Source: Candidatus Poribacteria bacterium (GTDB taxonomy: Bacteria > Poribacteria > WGA-4E > WGA-3G). Taken from it: a stretch of 42,231 nucleotides of DNA. The notes under the pieces were generated by a model. The model did not search any database. It had not been told where the DNA came from and worked only from the letters and a program-made list of their open reading frames with translations. Made by a program: the position numbers and the translations under genes. Positions within the stretch are counted from its first letter, which is position 1. Every line of letters starts with the position of its first letter. Positions 29,715 through 41,699 of the stretch are shown piece after piece. The DNA lies in assembly GCA_021295715.1 (NCBI GenBank), contig JAGWBV010000079.1, forward strand, positions 3,876-46,106. The letters are read 5' to 3'.

Positions 29715-30743
29715 TTACCGGTATATCGAGGTTTCAGGATAGTAGCGCGCCCATGCGAACCAATAGATATTGACAGCAGGCAGCCGCTCTAAACGGTTGC
29801 CTTTATCTTTACCCGATACTGCTTCGCCGGTAACGAGATTCCAAGGCGTCCCGGTATTGTCCGTTACAAAGTACCTATCTTGGTGACTAAAGGTCCGCGC
29901 CTCCCCCGCTACGCTCCGATTAAAGACCGCCGTTGCGAACGACGTTTTATCGTGAAAGATGAGTAGCGGCACCTCACCGAGTGTATCGTTGATAACAGCA
30001 GTTTTCGTAAAATGTGTCAATGGATACGCGCGAAATTGCGTGTTACCCTCCTCAGCCTGGATCTGAACGCCGATGACGAGAGACTTGTTAGGTAACCTGT
30101 CATCGGTGTACTCCATCCCGCTGACACCTGCGCGCTGGCTGGCGTGATAATCTGCATAGACATCTTGACTCTGGTTCTCACGCATTCCAACTCTGGTAGG
30201 TACGGACAAAACCTCTGTTTTTGGATAATTAAGTTGCCATGCCTTCCACGCTATCTGTGGCATAGAGGCGAGTGGCTTCAACTGTTTACCTTTGAGCGGT
30301 CCTCGTATCGCTTCCCCAGTGATATGCGACCAGAGGGAACGGGTCTGATGGTCATACATTAACAGGGCATCTCTCCACAATTTACCGCTAACACCAAACG
30401 TATAGGTCTTCCCGTCAAGTTCCCGGCTATACACGATAGCCGTTTTGCAGAGCGGTCACCACGTCGTGGCGATTTTCAGTCCACCGACAACGTCGTTGAC
30501 GATTTCGTGTCCGTTCAGCAGATAGAGTGAATAGGCATGACTTTCGTCGTTGAAGGTTACGCCAATGACAGGGGCATCCGCGTCTAACTTTGCTCCGCTG
30601 GCTGGCACAAATTGAGGATCGGTGATAGCCGGGATGGCGTCAAAAGGTAATAGCGTTCGGATTGCGTCGTCTGTATAATCTGCTGCGGTTGCGCAGAGAG
30701 TAACAAAGAATAGTAGTATGAGGATGCGTATGTAGTTTTTCAT
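29715..30743 (-). CDS. DUF3179 protein, candidate selenoprotein (in-frame UGA)
   Basis: One continuous frame of 342 residues runs from ATG 30743 to 29715 with a single TGA at 30458-30456 (codon 96). It has a signal peptide (MKNYIRILILLFFVTLCATA), then the DUF3179 pattern AIPAITDPQFVPA, DAPVIGV, LNGHEIVNDVVGGLKIATTW-[TGA]-PLCKTAIVYSRELDGKTYTFGVSG. In the family, as I recall it, the TGA position is the first Cys of a C-P-L-C redox-type motif, so selenocysteine (U-P-L-C) is the natural reading. A hairpin of bacterial SECIS type follows directly. TGA still ends other genes here (11510, 12791, 36847), so it is not a general recoding. The function of DUF3179 is unknown; the product should be periplasmic or secreted. 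The alternative is a nonsense mutation. Confidence 0.8.
30424..30442 (-). promoter_or_regulatory. candidate bacterial SECIS hairpin
   Basis: On the minus strand CGGCTAT, loop CGTGT and ATAGCCG form a perfect 7-bp stem, starting 13 bases after the TGA codon so that the apical loop begins about 20 bases downstream. Known bacterial SECIS elements sit immediately after UGA, with a short apical loop that carries a G in its first two positions; the loop here starts C-G. It lies wholly in the coding frame (TAIVYSR). Confidence 0.7.
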
Positions 30744-30800: not shown

Positions 30801-31226
30801 CTACGTAGATGGCTGCCCACTCGCGAATTGTAACAATCTTCTTCTGTTAACATGTTCAGGACGATTCATATTCAAAGCATCAATTGTTGCTCTGCCTGAC
30901 AGTGTGCGTCCGATAATATAGAGAAGATTTTCACTCCACATAAAGTGTCGTTTCCACCGTTTAGTTCTCGGATTAAAAAGTGGACTTTGTTGACCGGTTT
31001 GTGGGTCGCGGGCATGTGTTTTAGTGTGCTTATGTGTGTTGCACCATGGACACGCCCATGCCAAATTGGCTAATTCGGTTTTTCCGCCGGCATTTCGTGG
31101 GAGGATGTGATCACAGTGAAAGGATGCATTACTGACGCTGTCAGATGATTGGCAGTACTCACAAAGCCCGTTTGCACGCTCTCGTACACGGCGACGCAGG
31201 GCAGCAGGAATGGACTCAGAAGGCAT
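30801..31226 (-). CDS. HNH endonuclease
   Basis: The 141-residue product has a typical HNH core: zinc-binding CEYC (about 22-25) and CPWC (about 60-63), and the HNH residues in FHCDHILPRNAGGKTELANLAWACPWCNTHK. Small proteins of this kind nick or cut DNA; many are mobile-element or defence associated. The gene overlaps the end of the upstream gene by 11 bases and so is translationally coupled. No group I intron or intein signs are visible. Confidence 0.85.
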   Translation of the reverse strand: MPSESIPAALRRRVRERANGLCEYCQSSDSVSNASFHCDHILPRNAGGKTELANLAWACPWCNTHKHTKTHARDPQTGQQSPLFNPRTKRWKRHFMWSENLLYIIGRTLSGRATIDALNMNRPEHVNRRRLLQFASGQPST

Positions 31227-37357: not shown

Positions 37358-38744
<1,387 letters not shown>

Positions 38745-38850: not shown

Positions 38851-38960
38851 GTCAATGGTACCCACACGCTAAAGCGTGGAGCTTGTGCTTCCTCGCGACT
38901 GCGGTTTTCTCTAAGAGTCCACCGTCTGACTGTCGCTCCACTTTAGGCAGCCAAGCCTGC
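38851..38960 (-). ncRNA. candidate omega RNA region at the TnpB element right end
   Basis: The bases just after the tnpB stop, down to the right end, contain CCACGCTTTAGCGTGTGG, a hairpin typical of IS200/IS605 right ends. In studied TnpB systems the guide RNA scaffold covers this region and the guide is the flanking DNA past the end (here from about 38850 downward). Assigned by position, not by a covariance model. Confidence 0.35.
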
Positions 38961-40055
38961 CCGTTTGATATTGATAGCAGCGTTTACGTCTCTGTCGTGG
39001 TGTGAACCACATTCGGGACATGTCCACTGTCTATCTGAAAGAGAGAGTTCTTTGTTATGAAAACCACAATCACTACAAGGTTTTGTTGTTGCTGTCCATT
39101 GACTGATTTTGACAAAGGTTTTACCGTGTTTAGCACACTTTTGTTCGAATATCTGTAGAAACTGCCCGAAGGCATGGTCAGAGACTTTGCGTCCCCAAAG
39201 ACGTTTCATGCCGTCAAGGTTCAGCGTTTCAAAACAGAGGGTATCAAACGCTGTGCAAAGTTCGGTAGCAAGTTTCCACTGCCAATCTTCTCTTTGTCGG
39301 GCAACTTTTCTGTGCTGCCTTGCCAAAGCACGACACGCACGATACCAATTGTTAGAACCTTTGACTTTACGACTCAGTGCTTTACTTAGAGACTTCAACG
39401 TTTGTAGGGATTGTTTGAAAAACTGCGGAGATGCTATCTTCTTGCTTTCGCTATTTGTGAGGAATGTTTTGTTTCCATAATCAAACCCTGCGCTCTTACC
39501 CGTCTTGGGTTTCGGTTCGGCATCGTCAACATTCTCGCACGAAAAGCATATCCAATAGTCACCGCAGTTATCACGTTTGAGTGTGATTGCCTTGATGAGA
39601 CCTTTGATTTCACGGTGTTTGTGGAAGGAAAACCACGTGCCTATGCAATTGATTTTGATACGATTTTCTTCAAATGTGTATCCAGCTTGTGTGAACGTCA
39701 TGGAGTTGTATTTATGACGGGGTTTGATTTTCGGTCTCCCCACTTTGCGTGTCGTTTTACCTGCTTTTCGGTCTTTGATATTGTCAAAGAAAGCGTCTTG
39801 TGCTTTACCATAACGCAGCACAATGTCTTGAACAACTTGACTCGGTAGGTCTGCCCAATGCGGTTTGGTTCGCTTTTTGAGTTTCGTGATATGCTTATTG
39901 ATACGACTGGCTGAAAGGTTCTTACCGAACATGCGATAATACCGACGTGCCAAGAGCATGATATGAACGTGTATTTGCCACATATCGTCAAGCATATTGC
40001 CAAGTTTGAGTGTGTTCGATTGGTGCTGAAGTTTGAATTTGTAAGATTTTCTCAT
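38943..40055 (-). CDS. tnpB: TnpB (IS605 OrfB) RNA-guided nuclease
   Basis: The 370-residue product has the RuvC-like catalytic set: Asp in GFDYGNKTF (about 193), Glu in LCFETLNLDGM (about 272) and Asp in DRDVNAAINIKRAG near the C-terminus, with a zinc ribbon (CSDCG and CPECG, about 324-344). TnpB proteins cut DNA next to a TAM using omega RNA and help the element persist. Length is typical and no damage is visible, so it may be active. Start is the ATG at 40055; no strong Shine-Dalgarno is seen. Confidence 0.9.
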   Translation of the reverse strand: MRKSYKFKLQHQSNTLKLGNMLDDMWQIHVHIMLLARRYYRMFGKNLSASRINKHITKLKKRTKPHWADLPSQVVQDIVLRYGKAQDAFFDNIKDRKAGKTTRKVGRPKIKPRHKYNSMTFTQAGYTFEENRIKINCIGTWFSFHKHREIKGLIKAITLKRDNCGDYWICFSCENVDDAEPKPKTGKSAGFDYGNKTFLTNSESKKIASPQFFKQSLQTLKSLSKALSRKVKGSNNWYRACRALARQHRKVARQREDWQWKLATELCTAFDTLCFETLNLDGMKRLWGRKVSDHAFGQFLQIFEQKCAKHGKTFVKISQWTATTKPCSDCGFHNKELSLSDRQWTCPECGSHHDRDVNAAINIKRAGLAA

Positions 40056-40065
40056 GGATTATCAC

Positions 40066-40149
40066 GTATCACGCTTTTACCCCTTTGTAGTGGGTAGGAC
40101 CGACACGCTACCAAGCGGCAACGCTACAAATGTCGGTCCAACGTGATAC
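40066..40149. repeat. nested palindrome upstream of tnpB
   Basis: Outer arms GTATCACG/CGTGATAC (40066-40073, 40142-40149) and inner arms GGACCGACA/TGTCGGTCC (40097-40105, 40131-40139) form a nested hairpin, with a GTAGC-containing central part. It lies between the left end and the tnpB ATG. It is longer than the usual subterminal hairpin and could regulate tnpB or be a separate small insertion. Confidence 0.55.
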
Positions 40150-40298
40150 TCTAATTATACTACATTTTTTGCTGAAAGTCAAATGTTTTTTCAATGACAA
40201 ACCTATACGCCGTCTACATCCCGCAAGCTAAAGCATGGGGATTTGACGGGGAGTGTCAAGCCATAGTTTTCTTGGCCCCTGTGCACTCCTATGCACAG

Positions 40299-40742
40299 TC
40301 AGAGACTCGGACATGCCTTTTGGAAGTGGTCAAGTGCTTCTGCCCGATTGATTAACGCGTATTGCCGATTTCGAGTTGGCATGAGAAGATTCACGCGTTG
40401 AATTTTCTGATTCAGGTTTTCGAGTTTTTCACTATATTGCGCAATAACGCGAGCACGTTCCTGTTGCGGATACTGCTCGACGATAGCCGCTAACCGCTCC
40501 CGACGACCTTTTAAGTTTATGAGGATTCTTTCAAGTTGCACTTCTTCCCGCTTGATTTCTTTCTCTAACTCAACCCACCGAGGCGCAAACCCGTTCTCTT
40601 TCAGAAGTCGGTTTGCCATCCGTGCCTGTGGTGTGAGGAAGGGATTCGTGTCCAACTTGATCGGTTTACCTTCGCCGGGCAAATTTGCGAATTCGCCACG
40701 TTCCATTGCCTCTTCAATCTGTTTGTTGACATTGATCGGCAT
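40299..40742 (-). CDS. DUF1992 protein (DnaJ-homologue C28 conserved domain)
   Basis: The 147-residue product begins with the DUF1992 signature: IEEAMERGEFANLPGEGKPI and NPFLTPQARMANRLLKENGFAPRWVELEKEI (about 9-62), followed by a long basic helical part that may form a coiled coil. The domain occurs in bacterial YhdN-like and eukaryotic DNAJC28 proteins; its role is unclear. It is unusual to find it between atpG and atpD. The ATG is abutted by leader repeat copy 9. Confidence 0.85.
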   Translation of the reverse strand: MPINVNKQIEEAMERGEFANLPGEGKPIKLDTNPFLTPQARMANRLLKENGFAPRWVELEKEIKREEVQLERILINLKGRRERLAAIVEQYPQQERARVIAQYSEKLENLNQKIQRVNLLMPTRNRQYALINRAEALDHFQKACPSL

Positions 40743-40820: not shown

Positions 40821-41699
40821 TTAACCTTCGAGCGCGGCTGCGCCGCTTACAATCTCGGAAATTTCTGTTGTGATCTGCGTTTGACGTGCCCGGTTGCGTT
40901 GGAGAATCAGTTCATCAATAAGTTCTTTTGCCTTCTGCGTAGCATTTTCCATCGCTGCCATTCGGGCTGCTTGCTCCGCGGCGTTGGAATCCAGAAGGAC
41001 TTTCCACATTTGCATGTTCAGATGTTTACCGAGTAGCATTTCAAAGAGTTCCACTTGTCCCGGTTCATAAACATAATCAAGAAAAAGTTCATCCCCCTCT
41101 GGTATTTCAGGTTCTAAGGGGAGCAGCTGCTCAATAAGCACCGTCTGAAGAATAGCAGACTTGAAGTTGTTATAGATAACCTCGACTTTATCGATTTTCT
41201 TATCTGTATAAAGATGTTCAAATTCGTGAACAACATCAACAGCCGTTTGGAACTCAAGCTGACGGAAAATATTGATGTAGGCATCGGTGATGTCGTAATC
41301 GCGCCGAGCGAAATGCTCTTGCGATCGTCTGCCGATACAGATGAGCGTCACATCGGCACCACTCTCTTGATAATGTTCTATGCGTTGTGTCGTTGTCCGA
41401 ATAACGTTACTGTTGAAACTACCACACAACCCACGGTCGGCGGAGACAGAAACGATGCAGACATGCTTTGTCTCGCGTTGTTCAAGTAGCGGATGCGTTA
41501 TTGCCTGATTTTCAGTATCCATCTGCGAGATGAGGTGCCCTAAGATCGTGTTGAGTTTATCGGCGTAAGGACGCGTCGCATTAATATTTTCTTGGGCACG
41601 GCGGAGCCGCGCAGCAGCTACGACGCGCATTGCATCGGTGACCTGCTCAATATTTTGAATGCTGGCGATACGCCGTCGAATTTCTCGTAAGGTTGCCAT
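40821..41699 (-). CDS. atpG: F1 ATP synthase gamma subunit
   Basis: The 292-residue product begins with ATLREIRRRIASIQNIEQVTDAMRVVAAARLRRAQ and ends with the paired C-terminal helix (ENATQKAKELIDELILQRNRARQTQITTEISEIVSGAAAL), the two signatures of gamma. ADRGLCGSFNSNVIR (about 86-100) marks the Rossmann-like domain. It is the rotor shaft coupling proton flow to catalysis. GGAGG is some distance upstream (about 28 bases), so the start region has no close ribosome site. Confidence 0.95.
   Translation of the reverse strand: MATLREIRRRIASIQNIEQVTDAMRVVAAARLRRAQENINATRPYADKLNTILGHLISQMDTENQAITHPLLEQRETKHVCIVSVSADRGLCGSFNSNVIRTTTQRIEHYQESGADVTLICIGRRSQEHFARRDYDITDAYINIFRQLEFQTAVDVVHEFEHLYTDKKIDKVEVIYNNFKSAILQTVLIEQLLPLEPEIPEGDELFLDYVYEPGQVELFEMLLGKHLNMQMWKVLLDSNAAEQAARMAAMENATQKAKELIDELILQRNRARQTQITTEISEIVSGAAALEG

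Follow-up and report, generated by a model that had tools for sequence, protein, structure and literature searches.

Does the one TGA that lies within an otherwise open frame of this contig end a gene, or is it read as selenocysteine (Sec)? The DNA derives from a member of Candidatus Poribacteria, a phylum of sponge symbionts, and the window, i.e. the whole stretch of 42,231 nucleotides analysed here, had been read before from its letters alone. This sequence-only reading described a minus-strand frame from 29715 to 30743 with 342 codons and a lone TGA (30458-30456), coding for a probable selenoprotein of the DUF3179 family, and the frame and its coordinates proved to be exact. The gene and the parts of its protein are the following.

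29715..30743, minus strand: DUF3179 selenoprotein gene, 342 codons through the UGA and then TAA, with a full-length PF11376 match
30456..30458, minus strand: codon 96, the TGA for Sec, which opens the UPLC (UxxC) motif
30447..30449, minus strand: codon 99, TGC, for the resolving Cys in the UxxC motif, the same in all 24 aligned Sec and Cys homologues
30681..30743, minus strand: putative N-terminal export signal MKNYIRILILLFFVTLCATAA, recognised by inspection of the sequence
30171..30629, minus strand: N-terminal domain with the UxxC motif (AlphaFold2 domain model, mean pLDDT 91.1), part of an internal duplication
29715..30143 (boundary approximate), minus strand: C-terminal degenerate copy of the N-terminal domain without UxxC, from local self-alignment

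With an amino acid in place of the TGA, the translated frame matches positions 2-292 of the 292 positions of the PF11376 profile with 261 bits (E=1.8e-77), far above the cut-off of 27 bits, and the match continues unbroken across the TGA as had been claimed. Searching NCBIfam with the protein matched no model, and a search of solved structures by sequence gave none that is similar. The closest named homologues come from Candidatus Poribacteria MAGs and reach 89% protein identity. An alignment of 24 DUF3179 sequences has E79, N82, D83, C95 and C98 invariant (numbering from the row without Met); a HEIVND motif, with its E, N and D invariant, is kept together with both positions of the U/C-x-x-C motif. 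Some relatives possess a lipobox-like LFGC at the N-terminus. The first and the second half of the protein share homology, since local self-alignment scores 119 whereas 200 shuffles reach at most 45; only the first half carries UxxC. In some Sec genes (L108, L109, L110; several genomes of the same family) an insertion lies between the halves and the profile match is split at position ~195.

Nothing in the genetic neighbourhood hints at the function. Of 44 relatives, 41 have a convergent SDR gene near DUF3179 and 31 have a PhyH gene, but none of the window genes upstream of DUF3179 is kept in most relatives. Immediately upstream lies a small HNH endonuclease ORF (30801-31226, minus strand), which is near DUF3179 in two of the 44 relatives only. 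Further along the window, a TnpB-like gene (OrfB_IS605/Cas12f1-like TNB) and a gene with a DJC28 domain (38943-40742, minus strand) are located between atpG (40821-41699) and atpD/atpC. The atpD gene for the ATP synthase beta subunit (37358-38744, minus strand) appears in two frames, with ~23 bases lost in a conserved stretch, which is probably an assembly error. A phage relative was searched for and none was found.

The distribution of the TGA was compared across homologues. All 47 close homologues in the alignment have TGA at codon 96, as do 43 of the 43 complete named Poribacteria loci. A phylum-wide search identified DUF3179 in 75 of 85 Poribacteria genomes, 69 of which (counted by hand from the genome-by-genome rows) possess a copy with exactly one TGA; the single-contig genomes G005, G010, G022, G029 and G044 belong to these. 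As had been proposed, the TGA stands for the first of the two Cys in a CxxC motif. Examination of 16 further distinct DUF3179 copies, among them paralogues from the same genomes, gave Cys at this site in every case. A second and more distant class of UGA-containing DUF3179 genes, with the motif UHLC, occurs in other poribacterial families (L101, L102, L213). Strong purifying selection acts on both sides of the UGA, with a median dN/dS of 0.056 for the upstream part and 0.077 for the downstream part. Within the window, 30458-30456 is the only TGA that has long open flanks as well as a UxxC motif. As judged from these comparisons, the UGA is a sense codon at the position of a conserved Cys.

Behind the TGA the sequence-only reading had noticed a hairpin with a perfect 7-bp stem, and both its position and its loop are as described.

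30442-30424, minus strand: SECIS hairpin CGGCTAT-CGTGT-ATAGCCG with a 7-bp stem, starting 13 nt past the TGA
30435-30431, minus strand: SECIS loop CGTGT, 20 nt separating the UGA from the loop

A comparable hairpin follows 76 of the 1481 TGA trinucleotides on both strands of the window (about 5%), therefore the hairpin alone is weak evidence. What exceeds chance is its conservation across species. In 44 UPLC genes the synonymous diversity at U+5 to U+9, which are the hairpin codons, is 0.018 in comparison to a gene mean of 0.477, and this is the minimum among 275 five-codon windows. Among 39 distinct sequences the stem is paired in 97.8% of cells, and sliding the partner strand destroys the pairing. 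The stem pairs 20-32, 21-31 and 22-30 show compensatory changes on both sides, these double changes stemming from few lineages and coinciding with some amino-acid changes. Adding the most distant UGA copies of the UHLC type did not change the pairing pattern; they keep the position of the hairpin with a different stem sequence. By this comparative evidence the hairpin is constrained as RNA and is a SECIS element under selection.

An in-frame TGA can in general be a sequencing error or a nonsense mutation, and the locus would then be a decayed or miscalled Cys gene. Unrelated stop codons in close relatives had been named beforehand as a sign of such decay; instead, the TGA stands at the same codon in 69 genomes, closed ones included, other stops are absent, and the purifying selection extends downstream of it, which leaves a negligible chance for an error or a true stop. 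A TGA read as sense in this gene would also be expected if UGA coded genome-wide for an ordinary amino acid, e.g. Trp as in genetic code 4. However, TGA ends four of the 25 window genes checked and is thus an ordinary stop elsewhere, as the sequence-only reading had stated; the aligned residue of the homologues is Cys and not Trp, and the genome contains selB and a tRNA-Sec gene with the anticodon UCA. A reassigned code is accordingly a vanishingly improbable explanation, and on the basis of the TGA in 69 genomes, the dN/dS values, the Cys alignment and the TGA stops elsewhere we reject all of these possibilities.

More weight has to be given to the decoding machinery of the source genome, whose assembly (5.14 Mb in 175 contigs) is rated 96% complete. 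It harbours selB (350 bits, above the cut-off) and selD (360 bits), the latter with an in-frame UGA of its own, and next to selB the candidate tRNA-Sec gene.

L016:1501-2424 (G000:C29:59245-60168): selD, itself a predicted selenoprotein gene (CAGUASK)
G000 contig C54:31679-31784 (locus L003:1501-1606): tRNA-Sec gene after selB, 3' half absent

With 39.5 bits this candidate stays below the gathering score of 47 bits because the T-arm and the 3' end of the acceptor are absent; the sequence matches that of the relatives up to TTCG, after which the 3' half is lost and the start of lipA abuts. In relatives selC is intact at the selB-lipA locus and is often followed by a repeated element. A 42-bit tRNA-Sec match on contig C7 is a tRNA-Leu. 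For selA no match above the cut-off was obtained in the assembly, and weak selA-like matches on contigs C12 and C6 were set aside because similar weak matches occur in relatives which also have a true selA. Of the four sel genes that the sequence-only reading had named, selB and selD are therefore present, while selA was not found and selC is cut at its 3' end; relatives mostly have both, with selA above the cut-off in 51 and tRNA-Sec in 54 of the 60 genomes searched. The co-occurrence of SelA and SelB in most sponge-symbiont bins has already been reported (PMC5649159).

Could the source strain have recently lost Sec decoding, selA being gone and selC carrying a small deletion, with DUF3179 as a relic in which the UGA terminates? 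The missing selA and a tRNA-Sec that equals that of the relatives up to TTCG and then breaks off are what such a loss would leave behind, but the genome has intact DUF3179 and selB genes and an intact selD with its UGA, and the assembly is fragmented. The distance between selA and an AddA-like helicase gene is about 2-3 kb in relatives, and contig C150 of the source genome begins exactly at the start of this helicase gene. The contig end thus falls next to the syntenic selA cluster, and the simplest explanation is that the stretch with selA was left unassembled; in several relatives' MAGs, too, selA is near contig ends or split. The similar loss of 23 bases in atpD makes an assembly loss the likelier cause for selA as well as for the cut tRNA-Sec. 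We consider a recent loss in this strain improbable, with a slim chance of being true, and it would be inapplicable to the DUF3179 family at large. Most likely, the absence of selA and of the 3' part of tRNA-Sec in this MAG reflects an incomplete assembly.

The evidence that the minus-strand DUF3179 gene is a genuine selenoprotein gene is thus very strong, and the claim of the sequence-only reading stands on the shared TGA, the selection on both sides of it and the conserved SECIS hairpin. With a probability of roughly 0.93 we hold that it encodes an exported selenoprotein of Candidatus Poribacteria into which SelB and the SECIS element direct Sec at UGA 96, the gaps in selA and tRNA-Sec being most likely a matter of assembly. 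SelB carrying Sec-tRNA(Sec) would bind the hairpin just past codon 96, and Sec would be inserted instead of termination, giving a protein of 342 amino acids whose redox motif is U-P-L-C. A reversible selenenylsulfide could form between Sec and the Cys three positions further on, and from this we infer a thiol/selenol oxidoreductase. The protein would most likely be an exported selenol-thiol oxidoreductase, either periplasmic or membrane-anchored.

The assertion that no selenoprotein of this family is known has to be withdrawn. DUF3179 is listed among the UxxC/T selenoprotein families (PMC9312934) and again in PMC13188914, where Zhang & Gladyshev 2007 is named as the source, and among the RefSeq product names is 'DUF3179 domain-containing (seleno)protein'. 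Because of these two reviews and the RefSeq naming, the poribacterial gene does not represent a new selenoprotein family; it is a well-supported Sec member of a family which is already on published selenoprotein lists. Among the papers searched, none names a DUF3179 selenoprotein from Poribacteria, and no functional study of the family was found. What is left of the claim is a Sec clade across the phylum, the tandem-domain architecture and a weak lead to a Rieske-like fold. It should also be noted that selenoprotein genes of this kind are split in two by standard annotation.

In a tree of 38 sequences the Sec and Cys forms are found on opposite sides of one branch (support 95/87). For the sequences sampled, the tree is therefore compatible with a single origin of the Sec form, which may be considered. 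Most of the sampled Poribacteria keep Sec in one exported protein, and the retention of the same UGA at 59% identity and beyond suggests a real selection for Sec over Cys.

The AlphaFold2 model of the full protein (pLDDT 89.9) resembles Rieske [2Fe-2S] ferredoxins in Foldseek, with probabilities of up to 1.00 for several of them and E-values of only 0.02-0.3; for the isolated domain the E-values are worse than for the full model. The homology hinted at by this fold search is not supported by profile comparison, as hhalign gives DUF3179 and Rieske profiles a probability of 0.2%. A Pfam search of the protein yielded no Rieske match, and the CxH...CxxH set of cluster ligands is absent from the DUF3179 alignment. 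That DUF3179 consists of tandem Rieske-like beta domains in which the UPLC selenol-thiol pair replaces the iron-sulfur cluster, forming an exported Sec module across most Poribacteria, is a doubtful proposal which we rate as unlikely. If true, it would make DUF3179 an exported Sec redox module on an unusual scaffold.

Compared with known systems, the protein thus shares with Rieske ferredoxins a likeness of the model in Foldseek but differs from them by lacking the CxH...CxxH ligands. The hairpin does not depart from the stated limits of bacterial SECIS elements in the bSECIS model: its 5-nt loop, its 7-bp stem, the G at loop position 2 followed by U and the spacing of 20 nt are all within the published values quoted in PMC13188914. 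According to what PMC13188914 cites from Zhang & Gladyshev 2007, the delta symbiont of Olavius algarvensis has DUF3179 UxxC/T selenoproteins. As far as this published description goes, and by description rather than by alignment, these share the Pfam family, the UxxC motif and the type of Cys-to-Sec position with the poribacterial gene, while their host bacterium belongs to a different phylum. The Cys-containing DUF3179 proteins of other bacteria and of halophilic archaea likewise comprise the full-length domain, but with CPLC or CPxC at the position of the UPLC motif, i.e. with Cys in place of Sec and without the TGA.
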